This document shows, in pieces, positions 1,391 through 60,845 of a stretch of 64,000 bases of DNA; the stretch's first letter is position 1, and each line of letters opens with the position of its first letter. The notes under the pieces were generated by a model, which was not told the DNA's origin, made no database searches, and was given only the letters and a program-made list of their open reading frames with translations. Location of the stretch: IMG/VR virus record IMGVR_UViG_3300031251_000016, positions 1 to 64,000 of that record; one strand, 5' to 3'. The position numbers were made by a program, and so were the translations under genes. Origin of the DNA: a virus.

Positions 1391-1904
1391 CAGCTTCATG
1401 GAGGCTTGCCTCAACACGGCCACGGGCTTCGTCATTTCCTACCTTGCCGGCTGGCTCGTCTTCCCGCTGTTTGGCTTCGACTGGACGCCGGGCAAAGGCC
1501 TGGCGCTGACGCTGATCTTCACCGGTATCTCGATCGTGCGCTCCTACATCTGGCGGCGCATTTTCAATCGCAAGCACAAGTTCGCGAAGTTCGATCTTGT
1601 CGCGCATCTCGGGCGGCAGCGTGCGTTCTCGGAGCACACCTTCGGTCCGGGCATGCGAACGAAGGGCCTCATCGCGCACATCCGCAAGGAGCTTGACGAG
1701 ATCGAGCGCGCGCCGTTCGACCTGGAAGAGTGGATCGACGTCGTCATCCTGGCTTTCGATGGCGCGTGGCGTGCGGGGCACTCGCCCGTCGACATCGTGG
1801 CGGTGCTGGCGCTCAAGCAGAGCAAGAACGAACGTCGCAGATGGCCGGACTGGCGCGCGGTGGGCCAGGATCAGGCGATTGAGCACATTAGTCCCGCTGC
1901 GTGA
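1374..1904 (+). CDS. membrane-anchored dATP/dGTP pyrophosphohydrolase (DUF7220 + PF04447-like)
   Basis: A 176-residue protein with two parts. Residues 1-65 hold two hydrophobic helices (TGFVISYLAGWLVFPLF and GLALTLIFTGISIVRSY), as in DUF7220. Residues 80-165 match the PF04447 dATP/dGTP pyrophosphohydrolase, with GLIAHIRKELDEIE, LEEWIDVVILAFDGAW and LKQSKNERRRWPDW. Conserved acidic residues (E in KELDEIE, E/D in EEWID) would bind metal. The start at 1374 has AAGGAG upstream. MazZ of diaminopurine phages belongs to this family, but no purZ is seen in this window. Confidence 0.75.
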   Translation: MQSKRSSFMEACLNTATGFVISYLAGWLVFPLFGFDWTPGKGLALTLIFTGISIVRSYIWRRIFNRKHKFAKFDLVAHLGRQRAFSEHTFGPGMRTKGLIAHIRKELDEIERAPFDLEEWIDVVILAFDGAWRAGHSPVDIVAVLALKQSKNERRRWPDWRAVGQDQAIEHISPAA

Positions 1905-4696
1905 ACGCCGACGCCGTCCAAGCCCGCATCCGGTGGCTGCGCCAGGCGCGCGCGGCGCAGATCCCACCTGAGCATGAGTCGTGGTGGACTTACATCGCCT
2001 ACACACCCGGAAGGGGCTATGGAAAAACGAGGCTATCGGCGGAGGACTGCGCTTGGTATGCGATGACGCATCGGCGCGAGATCGTCCACGTCGTCTGCCC
2101 GACGAGTGACGACCTGCGCAAGGTCTATTTCGAGGGCCCGTCGGGGCTGCTGAATTGCCTGCCGCCAAGCGCGATCGTCAAATACAACAAGACGCCCTAT
2201 CCCGAACTCGTCACGACGACCGGCACGAAGATTCTTGGCTTCGGCGCTGAGAAGCCGGATCGCCTGCGCGGCCCCCAATGTCATCGGGCGTACTGCTTGG
2301 TCGGAGAGACGCTCGTCTTAATGGCGGACGGCTCTGAGAAGCCCATACGAGACGTAGAAGTCGGCGATCACGTAGTTACGCGCGCCGGATCGAAGATGGT
2401 CACTGCGGCGTGCATGACGAGAAAGCGGGCCACAACGCTGAAAGTGACTTGTTTTGGAGGACGAGCCATTGAAGGAACCCCCGAACATGAGCTATACGTA
2501 GTCAACGCGGGTTGGACCCCGCTGGGCGAGCTCAAACCGGGGGACAGGCTATGTGCGATAGGTGCGTCGAATTTGGCGGCAGGCGCTACCATCGCAGAAG
2601 CGATGGCTACTTCGTTCATGAAGGGTCGAGCCGCACCCGGCCGCGCGTTCGGCGTTATCTGCACAGGGACGTGTGGGCCGAGGAGAACGGCGAGATTCCT
2701 AAAGGATTTCACATCCACCATCGCGACGAGGACCGCGGGCACAACGCAATCGACAATCTTTTCCTCATGCCGCACGGCGATCACGCGCGCCACCACCGTC
2801 TTGGCAAAGAAAGCCCTACGTCCGTTTCGAACGGGCGAGCGGTCATGGAAGCGTTCTGGAGTCGGGCCGAGTGGAAGACCGCCAAGTGCATCGTTTGCGG
2901 AGCCGAGTTTCAATCTCGTGCTTTGGTTCCGTCAAAATTTTGTTCCGTCAAATGCAGCAGCGAATGGCACGAGCCGCGCTACGTTCCCGAAAGAAAGACT
3001 TGTGCATGCTGCGGTGCGTCTTTTGTTGCCAAAAAGCGCGCTCAGAGATTCTGCTCTAGGGCGTGCAACAGTCGTGCGAATGGCAAGGGTAGCCAAGGGG
3101 CGCGCGTCGTGTGCTGCGCAGAGTGCGGGTCCTGCTTCCCGTCAAACCGGAAAAACGCGCGGTTTTGCGGTCGAGAATGCGCCTTGGCTTACCACGACCG
3201 TAGTCGCGAGCGTCGAACCTTCGCCGACTTGTAAACCAGTCTACGATTTGACTGTTGCCGACGCGCACGAGTTTTTTGCGAACGGCATGCTGACGCACAA
3301 CTGCGACGAATTGGCGGCCTGGCAGTATGCCGAGACGTGGGATCAGCTTCTCTTCGGCTTGCGCCTCGGCAAGCACCCGCGCGCCATTATCACGACGACG
3401 CCGCGGCCGACGCCTCTGGTGCTGTCGATCCTCAAGGACAAGGGCACGCTTAAGATCACGGGCTCGACCTTCGACAACGCGGCCAACCTATCGGCGAAGA
3501 CGCTCGAGAAGCTCAAGGAGAAGTACGAGGGCACGCGCCTCGGCCGGCAGGAGCTGCGCGGCGAGGTCCTCGACGACGTGCCGGGCGCGCTCTGGACGCG
3601 CGACATGGTCGACGCGGCGCGGGCTCCGGTCGTTATTCCCGACTTCACGCGCATCGTAGTCGCGATCGACCCGTCAGGCGTGCGCAACGAGAGCGACACG
3701 GGATCCGATGAGGTCGGTATCGTCGTCGCGGCGAAGGGCGTGGATGGCCGCGGGTATGTGCTGTTCGACGGCTCCTGCAGGATGTCGCCGCTGGGCTGGG
3801 GGCGCCGCGCCGTCGAGCTTTACCGGCGCTTCGGGGCCGACCGGATCATCGGCGAGCGTAACTTCGGCGGCGCGATGGTCGAGGCCGTCATTCTGAGCAT
3901 TGACGACAATGTGCCCTACAAGGAGGTCACGGCCAGCCGCGGCAAGGTGCAGCGCGCCGAGCCGGTCGCAGCGCTCTACGAGCAGGGAAAAATCTCGCAT
4001 GTCGGCGACCTCGACGTGCTCGAGGATCAGATGTGCTGCATAACCTCGGCCGGCTATCTGGGCGAAGGCTCGCCCGATCGGGTCGACGCGTGTTTCGTTG
4101 CCGGAACGCTGGTTGAGACGGCAAGAGGAAGCGTGCCGATTGAGTGCGTGACGACGAAAGACTTTGTGCTTACTCGTCAAGGATTTAGACGCGTGACGTG
4201 GGCAGGCCGAACGGGGGTGAGAGAAACCGTTGTCACGACATTTGAGGATGGAAGAGAGCTAACGTCCACACCAGAGCATCCTGTCTGGACGGGTAGCGAC
4301 TTCACTGCTATAGCGGCTACGGCAGTTGGAGAGTCGTTATGGTCGCTGACCGCGAGAAGCGATACTTTGTCGACGCTATTTGCCCGGCTTGTGGAGGCGC
4401 GTTTAGGCAGAAAAAATGGGGAGACCGCTCCGAGGCTTGTTCCCGTAAGTGTGCTTGGGCGCTCCGCAGGGCGCGTCGAGCCTGTCTATAATCTGCATGT
4501 TGACGGCCCCCATGAATTCTTCGCGAACGGCTTCCTCGTGCATAATTGCGTCTGGGCGCTAACTGATCTGTTTCTCGGCGAGGATTTTGGCGGCTTTCTC
4601 GGCCACTACCGCGTTGAGTCTGAGAAGCGGCAGGCCGAAGTCGCTGCGAAGAAGGCGCCGGTCGCCGCGGGCTGGCTGCCGCCAAAGGTGGCTTGA
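1901..4696 (+). CDS. terL: terminase large subunit with two inteins
   Basis: This is the phage packaging motor ATPase and nuclease. The 931-codon frame starts with GTG overlapping the previous stop. Removing two inteins (residues 132-467 of 336 aa, and 731-882 of 152 aa) leaves a 443-residue protein, normal for TerL. The N-extein has Walker A GRGYGKTR. The Walker B region RGPQCHRAY / CDELAAW is interrupted by intein 1, one residue before Asp-Glu. The RNase H-like nuclease part has VAIDPSG, and SPDRVDA / CVWALTDLF is interrupted by intein 2. Both inserts therefore sit in catalytic motifs, and splicing should be essential for packaging. Confidence 0.93.
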   Translation: MNADAVQARIRWLRQARAAQIPPEHESWWTYIAYTPGRGYGKTRLSAEDCAWYAMTHRREIVHVVCPTSDDLRKVYFEGPSGLLNCLPPSAIVKYNKTPYPELVTTTGTKILGFGAEKPDRLRGPQCHRAYCLVGETLVLMADGSEKPIRDVEVGDHVVTRAGSKMVTAACMTRKRATTLKVTCFGGRAIEGTPEHELYVVNAGWTPLGELKPGDRLCAIGASNLAAGATIAEAMATSFMKGRAAPGRAFGVICTGTCGPRRTARFLKDFTSTIATRTAGTTQSTIFSSCRTAITRATTVLAKKALRPFRTGERSWKRSGVGPSGRPPSASFAEPSFNLVLWFRQNFVPSNAAANGTSRATFPKERLVHAAVRLLLPKSALRDSALGRATVVRMARVAKGRASCAAQSAGPASRQTGKTRGFAVENAPWLTTTVVASVEPSPTCKPVYDLTVADAHEFFANGMLTHNCDELAAWQYAETWDQLLFGLRLGKHPRAIITTTPRPTPLVLSILKDKGTLKITGSTFDNAANLSAKTLEKLKEKYEGTRLGRQELRGEVLDDVPGALWTRDMVDAARAPVVIPDFTRIVVAIDPSGVRNESDTGSDEVGIVVAAKGVDGRGYVLFDGSCRMSPLGWGRRAVELYRRFGADRIIGERNFGGAMVEAVILSIDDNVPYKEVTASRGKVQRAEPVAALYEQGKISHVGDLDVLEDQMCCITSAGYLGEGSPDRVDACFVAGTLVETARGSVPIECVTTKDFVLTRQGFRRVTWAGRTGVRETVVTTFEDGRELTSTPEHPVWTGSDFTAIAATAVGESLWSLTARSDTLSTLFARLVEARLGRKNGETAPRLVPVSVLGRSAGRVEPVYNLHVDGPHEFFANGFLVHNCVWALTDLFLGEDFGGFLGHYRVESEKRQAEVAAKKAPVAAGWLPPKVA
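2294..3301 (+). other. intein 1 in TerL Walker B site
   Basis: A 336-residue intein. Block A is CLVGETLVLMADGSEKPI, block B is GTPEHELYV (TxxH), block F is VYDLTVADAHEFFANG and block G is MLTHN, followed by Cys as the +1 residue. All four blocks are in the terminase frame. The roughly 230 codons between B and F in that frame show no endonuclease motif and look like low-complexity Ala/Arg/Ser/Thr sequence, because the DNA there encodes an HNH protein in another frame. Confidence 0.93.
2551..3234 (+). CDS. HNH homing endonuclease nested out of frame inside intein 1
   Basis: A 227-residue HNH endonuclease read in a frame whose codons begin at the third base of terminase codons. The HNH core is HIHHRDEDRGHNAIDNLFLM followed by HGDHARHH. 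It is followed by three zinc ribbons of pattern CxxC-x13-14-CxxxC (starting CIVCG, CACCG and CAECG). The start at 2551 follows CCGGGGGACAGG, a weak ribosome-binding site; the frame itself opens upstream of 2512. The stop at 3232-3234 lies just before intein block F. Expression would need internal initiation. It probably mediates homing of the intein or its own gene. Confidence 0.85.
   Translation: MCDRCVEFGGRRYHRRSDGYFVHEGSSRTRPRVRRYLHRDVWAEENGEIPKGFHIHHRDEDRGHNAIDNLFLMPHGDHARHHRLGKESPTSVSNGRAVMEAFWSRAEWKTAKCIVCGAEFQSRALVPSKFCSVKCSSEWHEPRYVPERKTCACCGASFVAKKRAQRFCSRACNSRANGKGSQGARVVCCAECGSCFPSNRKNARFCGRECALAYHDRSRERRTFADL
4091..4546 (+). other. intein 2 (mini-intein) in TerL nuclease motif
   Basis: A 152-residue intein. 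Block A is CFVAGTLVETARGSVPI, block B is STPEHPVW, block F is VYNLHVDGPHEFFANG and block G is FLVHN, with Cys as +1. Blocks F and G closely resemble those of intein 1 (DAHEFFANG versus GPHEFFANG), so the two may be related. It interrupts SPDRVDA / CVWALTD, the RNase H-fold metal site. The short linker carries an out-of-frame zinc-finger remnant. Confidence 0.92.
4297..4491 (+). pseudogene. out-of-frame zinc-finger remnant of an HNH gene inside intein 2
   Basis: In the same relative frame as the HNH gene of intein 1, this stretch is open from 4297, with an ATG at 4339, to TAA at 4489-4491. It encodes CPACGGAFRQKK then CSRKC, a CxxC-x15-CxxxC zinc ribbon like the three in the intein 1 nuclease. 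It stops at the 5' edge of block F, at the same relative place as the nested gene in intein 1. No HNH core remains. I infer it is the 3' remnant of a nested endonuclease gene. The short length leaves some chance of coincidence. Confidence 0.6.
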
Positions 4697-4721
4697 CTAT
4701 AACTACGGTCTTGGTTATGCA
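4693..4721 (+). promoter_or_regulatory. sigma-70-like promoter
   Basis: TTGACT at 4693-4698, a 17-base spacer and TATGCA at 4716-4721. It overlaps the terminase stop codon and lies 28 bases before the next ATG. Confidence 0.55.
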
Positions 4722-4749
4722 GTAGCTACCCAAGCCTGGAGGTTAAGCT

Positions 4750-4992
4750 ATGAAAGCGACTACCCTCGCCCTCGTTTTTGTTTTTGCCCTCACTCCCGCC
4801 CTCGCCCTTGACGCCGCGCCGACGGCGGAGGCCCCCCTCTACGACCCATGTCAAGTCGCGACGACCGCAGCCGACCTCGCCGACTCCTTCACGCTCAACA
4901 ATCCAGCTAACGACATAAAGGTGATGGCGGACCTTGCTCACGACACGCGCGACATTATCTGCGCGAGGCGCCCCGTCCCCGCGGCGAAGTAA
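4750..4992 (+). CDS. small secreted protein
   Basis: An 80-residue protein with a Sec signal peptide: MKATT, a hydrophobic core (LALVFVFALTPALA) and a likely cleavage after ALA. The mature part is about 60 residues with two Cys that could pair. The ribosome-binding site CTGGAGG lies upstream. It has its own promoter directly after the terminase. The family is not recognised; a periplasmic role in the lysogen or in lysis is possible. Confidence 0.65.
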   Translation: MKATTLALVFVFALTPALALDAAPTAEAPLYDPCQVATTAADLADSFTLNNPANDIKVMADLAHDTRDIICARRPVPAAK

Positions 4993-58396: not shown

Positions 58397-59044
58397 ATGA
58401 GTGGGATGGCGTTGGCGCCCAGAGTGGCCGACATTGTGAGGGTTGTCTCCGAGGACTATGGCCTCCCAATTTTTGCAATCCTCTCGCCGCGCAAGTCCGC
58501 GCAGATCGTCGAGCCGCGGCACGTCTGCGTCTACCTCGCGTCCGAGTTGACCAAACAATCTTGGACGCAACTCGGCCGGCACTTCGAGCGCGATCACACG
58601 TCGCTCTTAACCGCACGGGCGAACTTCGAAAAGCGGCTCGCCACGGATAGCGCCCTCGCCGCGCGCGTTGAGCGCCTCGCCGCCGAGGCGCGTCGGCTCG
58701 CCGTGCCGGAGATCCGCGAGGCGGAGGACGAGCAGCGACGCCTCGCGGCGCACACGCGCAGGCTAGAAGACGCGGCGCTCCGGCGCGCGGCGCGTGAGAT
58801 GAAAGAACGGCGCGAGCGCACGCAGGTCGTGCTCGACGAGCTTCCCAGAACGCCGCCAGGGCCGTCACGTGACCGACTCGTCGCGGAGGCGAAGGGCCTC
58901 GACCCTCGCTTTAACGAGCTCGCGCGCCGCTACGCCTACGCGCAGCAGGCGACCTTCACGATGGCGGAACGCGAAGCCAATGCGGCGCTGTCGCGCGAGA
59001 TCGCGTTCCTGCCGAAGCGCTTCGCCGAGCGCGCGCGTGGTTAA
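58397..59044 (+). CDS. DnaA-domain-IV-like DNA-binding protein
   Basis: A 215-residue protein. Residues 10-75 match the DnaA C-terminal DNA-binding domain: IVRVVSEDYGLPIFAILSPR, RHVCVYLASELTKQSWTQLG and FERDHTSLLTAR (the DHT motif of the DnaA signature). The rest is coiled coil (EAEDEQRRLAAHTRRLEDAA). Phages use such proteins for origin binding or gene regulation. It lacks the AAA+ domain. Confidence 0.75.
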   Translation: MSGMALAPRVADIVRVVSEDYGLPIFAILSPRKSAQIVEPRHVCVYLASELTKQSWTQLGRHFERDHTSLLTARANFEKRLATDSALAARVERLAAEARRLAVPEIREAEDEQRRLAAHTRRLEDAALRRAAREMKERRERTQVVLDELPRTPPGPSRDRLVAEAKGLDPRFNELARRYAYAQQATFTMAEREANAALSREIAFLPKRFAERARG

Positions 59045-60845
59045 GGCTTACTACAACGAGCATGACCCTCACGCTGCGGCGTGGCTTCGCAACCTGATCG
59101 CGCAAGGACTGATCGCGGATGGAGACGTCGACGAAAGAAGCATCGAAGACGTCCGCCCCGACGACTTGCGAGACTACGCCCAGTGCCACTTCTTTGCCGG
59201 CGTCGGAGTTTGGTCTTACGCACTCCGACTTGCCGGCTGGCCCGACGACCGGCCTGTCTGGACCGGCTCGTGTCCGTGCCAACCTTTCAGCGCGGCAGGC
59301 AAAAGAGGCGGGGCTTCTGACGAGCGGCACCTATGGCCTGCGTTCTTCCATCTCATCGAGCAGTGCAGACCTAGAACTGTTTTTGGCGAGCAGGTTGCGA
59401 GCAAGGATGGGCTCGCTTGGCTCGACCTTGTTCACGCTGACTTGGAAGGAGCGGGCTACGCCGTTGGGGCTCTCGATCTCTGCGCTGCGGGCGTCGGGGC
59501 GCCGCATATCCGACAGCGATTGTTCTTCGTGGCCGACGCCGATGGCGGGCTCTCCGGCGACCGAGGCTTACAACGAAGCGGGGAACAGCGACTACAGCCG
59601 CAAGACGGTGGCGCTAGCCTCCTGGCCGACGCCGAAAGCCTCGGACTGCCAGGGCGGCAGGACGACGGAGACGGCGGGCGGCGGCAACGCGCATCTGGAT
59701 CGGGACGTGAGGTTGGCGAGCTGGGCGACGCCGGCAGCACGGGACGGCCGATTTGCGAACGCGAAGACCTACAAGGAGCGGGGCGGTGGGGTGAAGGGGG
59801 AGCAGTTGAACAACCAAGCCGTCCACTTAGCGGGTTGGGCGACGCCGAATGCCTCGGCGCCGGGAGGGACGCCGGAAGCAGCTTTGAAGCGCAAGGAGGG
59901 CCTTCCTTGCGGTCAGAGCGTGACGACGCTGGATCATCAAGTTCAGATGGTCGGCCCGGTCCGACTAACGGCTATTGGAATCTTGCTGACTGGATCTTCT
60001 GCACAGACGGAAAATGGCGGCCAGTTGAGTCCACGCATGTCCGCTTGGCTCCAAGGATTGCCGCCGATTTGGGACGAGTGCGCGCCGACGAAGGAACAGA
60101 TGAAACGGAGTTGATGAATGCCGCGCGTCTACGAGGTCAAACCAACCCCCGAAAAGTTTTGTCGTCACTGCGGCGTAGCACTGGGGCGGAAGCGCATGAA
60201 CGGCCGCCTAGAGGACCGAGGGGTTTTCCTGCGGCGACAGTTTTGCGATCAAACGTGCATGGCGAAAGCCATGGAGAAAGAGACCTGCACGTCGGTCAGC
60301 CATTCCCGCATGAAGGCCAATCGCACGATGAAACCATCATGCGAAGCGTGCAACGCGACGGGAAAGCTACACGTCCACCACAAGGACGAGAACCCGCTCA
60401 ACAACGACCCGTCGAACTTGAAGACGTTGTGCGTCTCTTGCCACCGTCGCTCGCACTCGCCGAACTTCACGGCGACAGGGGAACAGCGAGCGCCTTGCGC
60501 TCATTGTGCGAAGCAATCTGTAAAGGTCGGTCTTTGCGCCACGCACCTGACGAGGCTCAGGCGCTTTGGCCATCCCTTAGCCAAGAAGCGAAAGATTGGA
60601 TCGGCTTGGGTTTTGATGCTGCACGATGGGAACTTGTGGTTCCCTTTCCCCTCATAGATGGGTCTGCCTTCCGAGTGGGACCAGGCGGCGCCAACTCGCG
60701 ACCAAATGAAGGCATCTTCGAAGGCAAGTCCCGCGCGAAAATGCTCCGCGGCTACGGGAACTGCATCGTCGCGCCGCTCGCGGCGGAATTCATCGGCGCT
60801 TTCCTCGATTGGGAAACCGAAGGCTTGGGAGGGGTTATGAAATGA
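59037..60845 (+). CDS. C5 cytosine-specific DNA methyltransferase, split by an out-of-frame insertion
   Basis: A 602-codon frame with GTG start overlapping the upstream stop by 8 bases. Motif I is FFAGVGVWSYALRLAGW, motif IV is SCPCQPFSAAGK (catalytic Cys), motif VI is FGEQVA, motif VIII is IRQRLFFVADA and the late motifs are GPTNGYWNLADWIFC, DGKWRPVE and LRGYGNCIV. Between DGKWRPVE and PFPLIDGSAF lie about 190 codons without family similarity that cover an HNH gene in another frame. From 59119 to 60114 the same DNA encodes a second protein. Activity with the insert is uncertain. Confidence 0.85.
   Translation: MVKAYYNEHDPHAAAWLRNLIAQGLIADGDVDERSIEDVRPDDLRDYAQCHFFAGVGVWSYALRLAGWPDDRPVWTGSCPCQPFSAAGKRGGASDERHLWPAFFHLIEQCRPRTVFGEQVASKDGLAWLDLVHADLEGAGYAVGALDLCAAGVGAPHIRQRLFFVADADGGLSGDRGLQRSGEQRLQPQDGGASLLADAESLGLPGRQDDGDGGRRQRASGSGREVGELGDAGSTGRPICEREDLQGAGRWGEGGAVEQPSRPLSGLGDAECLGAGRDAGSSFEAQGGPSLRSERDDAGSSSSDGRPGPTNGYWNLADWIFCTDGKWRPVESTHVRLAPRIAADLGRVRADEGTDETELMNAARLRGQTNPRKVLSSLRRSTGAEAHERPPRGPRGFPAATVLRSNVHGESHGERDLHVGQPFPHEGQSHDETIMRSVQRDGKATRPPQGREPAQQRPVELEDVVRLLPPSLALAELHGDRGTASALRSLCEAICKGRSLRHAPDEAQALWPSLSQEAKDWIGLGFDAARWELVVPFPLIDGSAFRVGPGGANSRPNEGIFEGKSRAKMLRGYGNCIVAPLAAEFIGAFLDWETEGLGGVMK
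59119..60114 (+). CDS. W(P/A)TP-repeat protein overlapping the methyltransferase
   Basis: A 331-residue protein in the +1 frame of the methyltransferase. It matches a phage family that I recall as encoded over C5 methyltransferase genes: LSARQAKEAGLLTSGTYG, STLFTLTWKERATPLGL, repeats SWPTP, SWPTP, SWATP and GWATP, and the end SSAQTENGGQLSP, GLPPIWDECAPT. Both frames carry conserved family motifs, so this is dual coding. Its function is unknown. It ends 3 bases before the HNH gene. Confidence 0.7.
   Translation: METSTKEASKTSAPTTCETTPSATSLPASEFGLTHSDLPAGPTTGLSGPARVRANLSARQAKEAGLLTSGTYGLRSSISSSSADLELFLASRLRARMGSLGSTLFTLTWKERATPLGLSISALRASGRRISDSDCSSWPTPMAGSPATEAYNEAGNSDYSRKTVALASWPTPKASDCQGGRTTETAGGGNAHLDRDVRLASWATPAARDGRFANAKTYKERGGGVKGEQLNNQAVHLAGWATPNASAPGGTPEAALKRKEGLPCGQSVTTLDHQVQMVGPVRLTAIGILLTGSSAQTENGGQLSPRMSAWLQGLPPIWDECAPTKEQMKRS
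60040..60720 (+). repeat. diverged duplicated segments flanking the HNH gene
   Basis: In the +1 frame of the methyltransferase, 60054-60111 encodes GLPPIWDECAPTKEQMKRS and 60661-60714 encodes GLPSEWDQAAPTRDQMKAS. The two copies flank the HNH gene. The upstream copy completes the overlapping protein, and the downstream copy, in the other frame, completes the methyltransferase C-terminus. Confidence 0.75.
60118..60657 (+). CDS. HNH endonuclease inserted in the methyltransferase region
   Basis: A 179-residue HNH nuclease: an N-terminal zinc ribbon (FCRHCG ... FCDQTCMAK), then the HNH core CEACNATGKLHVHHKDENPL, NNDPSNLKTLCVSCHRRSH, and a C-terminal CAHCAKQ...GLCATHLTRLRRFGHP. It lies between two diverged copies of the segment coding GLPxxWDxxAPTxxQM. 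The methyltransferase frame stays open through all of it. Likely a homing endonuclease. Confidence 0.85.
   Translation: MPRVYEVKPTPEKFCRHCGVALGRKRMNGRLEDRGVFLRRQFCDQTCMAKAMEKETCTSVSHSRMKANRTMKPSCEACNATGKLHVHHKDENPLNNDPSNLKTLCVSCHRRSHSPNFTATGEQRAPCAHCAKQSVKVGLCATHLTRLRRFGHPLAKKRKIGSAWVLMLHDGNLWFPFPS

Follow-up and report, generated by a model that had tools for sequence, protein, structure and literature searches.

Architecture of the terminase locus

The window analysed here, a stretch of 64,000 nucleotides, is part of a 66,457-base virus record of IMG/VR and contains a gene for the terminase TerL that encodes two inteins. The first intein extends from position 2294 (Cys1, TGC) to position 3301 (Asn codon AAC, 3299–3301), with TPEH as its block B, and a complete endonuclease gene is nested within it in another reading frame. 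The features of the locus are listed below; in the insertion-site motifs a slash marks the point of insertion.

1901–4696, + strand: TerL precursor of 931 residues, three extein pieces and two inteins in a single open frame (Pfam Terminase_6N/6C, Intein_splicing, Hint_2)
2294–2550, + strand: N-terminal splicing half of intein 1 (Cys1, blocks A and B), at the Walker B site RAY/CDELAAW (Pfam; AF2 pLDDT 96–98, residues 1–90)
2539–2544, + strand: SD-like GGGGGA overlapping the Gly-Asp codons at the end of block B, proposed ribosome-binding site of the HNH gene (duplex dG −8.6; class-wide enrichment)
2551–3234, + strand: HNH_3 endonuclease with three zinc ribbons, in frame −1 relative to TerL, ATG start, TAA stop (Pfam; AF2; PDB match I-HmuI)
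2567–3181, + strand: TerL-frame reading of the HNH DNA, a stop-free unstructured linker joining the two HINT halves (AF2 pLDDT ~45, residues ~92–296; no amino-acid constraint)
3182–3301, + strand: C-terminal splicing half of intein 1 (blocks F and G, ...LTHN), with the +1 Cys at 3302 (Pfam; conserved blocks; AF2)
4091–4546, + strand: intein 2, a mini-intein of 152 residues at the TerL nuclease site DRVDA/CVWAL (Pfam)
4339–4491, + strand: out-of-frame (−1) ORF of 50 codons in intein 2, with one zinc ribbon, an ATG and a GGAG SD-like site; HNH-gene remnant (alignment; profile)

Pfam searches of the TerL frame recover two HINT inteins, with an Intein_splicing match at E=1.4e-18 in intein 1, and searches of frame −1 between its blocks B and F recover HNH_3 at E=1e-13. 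The catalytic H/N/H residues and all three CxxC-CxxxC ribbons of the window HNH are intact, and the H/N/H columns are invariant across the HNH alignment. The host frame meets the criteria for a class 1 type intein (Cys1, TxxH, C-terminal Asn and +1 Cys/Ser): C1, T62, H65 and N336 are invariant in the 35 loci compared, in which the HINT blocks with Cys1, TxxH, HN and the +1 Cys are conserved. The canonical homing-intein layout, with an endonuclease in frame between blocks B and F, is not met because the HNH is in frame −1, and the criterion for a fractured gene with a split intein is not met in the window because TerL is a single ORF. An earlier reading, made from the sequence alone, had placed splicing blocks A, B, F and G in the terminase frame and a full HNH nuclease with three zinc ribbons in a second frame (2551–3234), with the terminase frame open throughout. 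All three claims are upheld by the coordinates, conserved blocks, Pfam matches, intact catalytic residues and single TerL ORF. That reading missed intein 2, which displays the same layout in reduced form.

Structure predictions agree with this assignment. The AF2 model of intein 1 shows two segments of high confidence (residues 1–90 and ~300–336, pLDDT 96–98) separated by a region with pLDDT of ~45, the TerL-frame stretch between blocks B and F being predicted as disordered. Compared with the PDB, the model matches solved inteins, gp41-1 first, and meets the HINT fold criterion. The HNH product is modelled with a pLDDT of 89, and its best Foldseek match in the PDB is I-HmuI (1u3e_M), with a probability of 1.00 and an E-value of only 0.018; a sequence search of the PDB with the HNH profile gave no match.

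Distribution of the two-frame layout

Relatives were collected by tblastn on phage records and then by scans of IMG/VR and of bacterial and archaeal genomes. A single-sequence search of IMG/VR with the window HNH gave no match, and an alignment was needed. The tblastn search with the HNH found matches in terminase-annotated ORFs of several phages, and the two-frame layout is present in the isolates Tetrasphaera phage TJE1, Acinetobacter phage Highwayman (GC 0.39) and Rhodobacteraceae phage LS06-2018-MD07, as well as in a fecal phage contig (GC 0.39). The survey comprises 246 HNH ORFs, reduced to 166 representatives at <80% identity, a threshold that leaves residual kinship among them; most relatives are metagenomic contigs or fragments, some of them cut.

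The HNH sits within an intein whose host frame is open throughout in 113 of the 166 representatives, in frame −1 in 102 and in the other frame in 11. N- and C-blocks lie in separate ORFs in 16/166, intein blocks are absent from 25/166, and the remainder are cut. None of the 166 carries the HNH in frame with the intein. The search itself was frame-independent; the seeds were all out of frame, and this zero count is not an estimate for HNH inteins at large. The search for the same layout among TerL inteins that the sequence-only reading had proposed thus finds it widely. The layout with HNH in the opposite register (+1) characterizes one TerL intein family (L086, L187–L241), which keeps the costlier frame open and has no SD at the ATG; on the HNH tree the opposite register corresponds to a single change of frame label.

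Two further loci were observed in the survey. In L017 (415–5148) a LAGLIDADG-type homing endonuclease, encoded in frame, shares a single TerL ORF with a two-frame HNH intein. At L116 (788–4141) an intein-like element of the two-frame kind lies in an ORF with exteins for which Pfam returns no terminase match, suggesting that host genes are not confined to TerL.

The host frame is kept open by selection

The sequence-only reading had cautioned that high GC favours long open alternative frames and that selection on both frames must be shown. Openness was evaluated against a null of synonymous-codon shuffling of each HNH that keeps protein and codon usage, a conservative null since codon usage is taken from sequences already avoiding stops. 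The caution holds for the window alone: 1.0 stops are expected and the TerL frame remains open in 26% of shuffles (P(0)=0.26), so that this GC-rich locus by itself is insufficient to show selection for openness.

The relatives do show it. At the 128 loci where both intein blocks are present and the frame is usable, the host frame is open in 113 against 12.0 expected, and in the subset with GC<0.45 it is open at 48 of 56 against 1.0 expected, the open layout being found in widely divergent phages, those of GC 0.32–0.45 among them. The count of 0 stops against 231.9 expected over the 102 frame −1 loci is partly fixed by the definition of that class; the fair count is 113/128 against 12.0. Three controls behave as chance predicts: HNHs of split inteins carry 101 stops (100.7 expected), free-standing HNHs carry 166 (162.7 expected), and the unused frame of the opposite-frame group carries 91 (90.9 expected). 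Chance is thus excluded as the source of the open host frame across relatives. The HNH occupies frame −1 at ~90% of open loci, a preference explained by its lower cost, with ~2.3 expected stops per HNH in frame −1 versus ~18 in the other frame (231.9 versus 1854.6 over 102 loci).

The two frames are under different kinds of selection. In 322 pairs, differences concentrate at the third position of HNH codons (25246/22778/37002 for positions 1/2/3), and host-frame identity is 0.268 versus 0.267 expected from the HNH alone. The per-frame substitution analysis that had been called for gives, in the L086 family (37 pairs), a dN/dS of 0.11 for the HNH and 1.66 for the host frame, with 0 host-frame stops observed versus 239 when sequences are simulated under the HNH constraint alone. 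Taken together, dN/dS, codon positions, identity and stop counts establish that the HNH is a protein under purifying selection and that the host frame is selected solely for openness, in agreement with the AF2 model. Selection on both frames is therefore answered asymmetrically: for protein in the HNH, for openness only in the host frame. The description 'two functional proteins' in its strict sense was rejected for the linker, where no amino-acid constraint of the host frame is detected.

Start signals of the HNH gene

The HNH starts directly after block B. A scan for the first ATG, or otherwise the first alternative start, within a fixed interval after block B finds a start at 94 of 102 frame −1 loci, mostly ATG, and none in that interval at the other 8/102. 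The median SD duplex energy is −5.4 at HNH starts versus −2.1 at 4470 control start triplets (p=2.6e-18), and HNHs of the Walker B clade share a conserved MCDxC start. In the opposite-frame group ATGs are present and SD enrichment is absent, and another route might act there.

HNH clades follow the insertion site

In a tree of 106 HNHs (a quick tree with SH-aLRT support only), all 12 HNHs from the Walker B site fall in a single supported clade and all 4 from the DRxDA/CVWA site in another. Insertion-site labels require 30 changes on this tree versus 55.7 when shuffled, and none of 500 shuffles is as good. At all insertion sites the HNH lies between blocks B and F, where an intein canonically carries its endonuclease. 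Clades that track the insertion site are what is predicted for a site-specific homing enzyme; this evidence is indirect, and cleavage and homing are inferred.

Intein 2 of the window offers a reduced version of the same arrangement. Its small ORF aligns with the final zinc ribbon of two HNHs, those of L065 (score 115; best of 50 shuffles 42) and L106 (score 105; best shuffle 48), both of which sit at the same TerL site as intein 2 (DRxDA/CVWA). It matches the HNH profile at E=3.6e-6 and is too short for Pfam. The sequence is best explained if intein 2 descends from a two-frame intein by loss of the HNH domain, a probable inference.

Split relatives

Where relatives carry host-frame stops, TerL is cleanly divided in the manner of a split intein: an N-half terminates beyond block B, the HNH comes next or overlaps it, and the C-half is provided with a separate start. 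Vibrio phages 1.238 and 1.245 have a split TerL with a broken host frame. The sequence-only reading would have been refuted by terminase-frame stops in relatives; such stops occur in a minority only, and in these TerL is divided as in split inteins.

At twelve loci (L004, L008, L028, L103, L108, L115, L122, L124, L127, L166, L179 and L186) TerL consists of two ORFs split between intein blocks, and an HNH gene of the same family stands free between the two halves or overlaps them. These twelve are regarded as candidate natural split inteins.

Relation to known systems

The closest precedent is the ShiLan domain of mycobacteriophage methylases, in which an HNH lies out of frame with neither an intein nor any splicing domain (Arsenault, Gosselin, Gogarten 2025, PMC11855218). 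Both arrangements have a zinc-finger HNH out of the host frame, an open host frame and probable mobility. However, ShiLan has no splicing blocks, is thought to be retained in the protein and resides in a non-essential methylase, whereas the two-frame HNH is nested in a HINT intein of an essential gene. Translation of the ShiLan HNH is unexplained and no ribosome-binding site is seen, whereas the HNH of the two-frame intein has an SD-like site, and openness has here been tested statistically across >100 lineages. The ShiLan criterion of an element with little beyond the HNH ORF is not met by intein 1, which has full splicing blocks outside that ORF.

The same phage also contains a hidden HNH of the ShiLan type. 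A C5 DNA methyltransferase ORF at 58869–60845 of the window (DNA_methylase E=6.9e-12) carries a zinc-ribbon HNH in another frame (60118–60657) and no intein blocks; its host frame has 0 stops versus 4.4 expected (P=0.0035) and its unused frame 10 versus 7.8. The annotated DNA-cytosine methyltransferase of Staphylococcus phage CUB-EPI_14 (L244, 842–2647; GC 0.33) carries a homologous HNH, likewise out of frame and in that same register, with 0 host-frame stops versus 11.1 expected.

The dCTP deaminase intein of cyanophage CL131, which self-excises in E. coli (PMC6293099), likewise combines HINT with HNH_3 between blocks B and F, but its HNH_3 is in the same frame and part of one precursor, whereas here it is a separate frame −1 gene. 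Dassa et al. 2009 report fractured genes in which split inteins are accompanied by a free-standing endonuclease (gp41-1 type). There too the endonuclease is translated separately between the intein halves, gp41-1 is the nearest solved structure to the intein model, and the HNHs of the split TerL relatives belong to the same family; in the window, by contrast, the host gene is unsplit and encodes an unbroken precursor through the HNH gene. I-HmuI, one of the HNH homing endonucleases of phage group I introns, gives the best structural match to the HNH model, but these enzymes are carried by an RNA intron and not by an intein in another frame. Full-text literature searches returned no description of an intein that contains an endonuclease in another frame; they did not cover the actinobacteriophage intein preprint of Gosselin et al. 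2025 ('non-canonical architecture'), which may hold related cases.

Alternative explanations

The HNH could be a ShiLan-like selfish insertion that landed by chance in a pre-existing mini-intein and has no part in intein mobility. Out-of-frame HNHs without inteins do exist (PMC11855218), one of them in the window methylase, and invasion of an intein by an HNH remains a possible origin of the arrangement. Nevertheless, as the sole explanation it is improbable, given that HNH clades match the TerL site (12/12, 4/4 and 0/500 shuffles, as above) and that the HNH lies in the canonical B–F slot at all sites.

Alternatively, the HNH might be produced by programmed −1 frameshifting as a fusion of TerL-N, intein-N and HNH, with no separate product. 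The ~90% of open loci with the HNH in frame −1 would fit this model, but the stop cost accounts for that bias, start codons are present at 94/102 loci with SD enrichment, the MCDxC start is conserved in the Walker B clade, and 16 representatives use the opposite frame. Frameshifting is considered very improbable; it cannot be ruled out, slippery sites not having been scanned.

That the open terminase frame is a by-product of high GC, and only a single frame matters, finds support in the 26% of shuffles that keep the window frame open. Across the family it is refuted by the 48/56 open loci at GC<0.45 and by free-standing and split relatives, which carry stops at chance level; it is tenable for a single locus only if the intein is a dead relic.

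Finally, HNH_3 genes are common in phage introns, but a group I intron mistaken for an intein can be virtually dismissed: positions 1800–4800 give no Rfam match up to E=1, the HINT blocks are conserved in 35 loci, and the host frame is selected to be open, which an intron would not need.

Proposed mechanism and implications

The preferred reading, held with strong confidence in the absence of any experiment, is that intein 1 is a mobile intein made of two overlapping genes, and that phage TerL inteins include a large class of this construction. In the TerL-frame product, blocks A/B and F/G would fold as a HINT domain, excise and ligate the exteins, and the middle would form a long disordered loop whose only role is the absence of stop codons. 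Re-initiation on the same mRNA at the ATG at 2551, directed by the SD-like sequence in the codons at the end of block B, would yield the separate frame −1 HNH, which would cleave, at the insertion site, TerL genes that lack the intein, allowing the whole intein to spread.

The comparative data show the two frames, selection on the HNH, an open-but-free host frame, SD enrichment and site-tracking HNH clades; protein splicing, HNH expression by internal initiation, DNA cleavage and homing are inferred, without experiment. The uncoupling suggested by the sequence-only reading, in which one frame provides splicing and a product with an internal start provides homing, is supported comparatively in both halves, with splicing, expression and cleavage remaining inferred. 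A bolder reading, which appears probable as one joint claim, is that two-frame inteins constitute a previously undescribed major class of homing inteins with splicing and mobility in overlapping frames, widespread in phage TerL in both frame registers, beside split inteins and HNH-deleted mini-inteins such as intein 2 of the window.

In all likelihood, then, this is a real and widespread out-of-frame variant of the homing intein, its splicing and cleavage being inferred. Standard annotation seeks an in-frame endonuclease and would file two-frame inteins as odd-spacer inteins without one; in GenBank, TerL of TJE1 and of Highwayman is annotated without an HNH. The conserved arrangement also constitutes a natural, replicated overlap in which one frame is constrained in sequence and the other only stop-free, a test bed for overlap statistics and entangled gene design. 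For the phages themselves, the layout uncouples nuclease dose and timing from the motor protein and lets either activity be lost separately, and it bears on how inteins gain and lose endonucleases and on how split inteins with a free-standing endonuclease arose.
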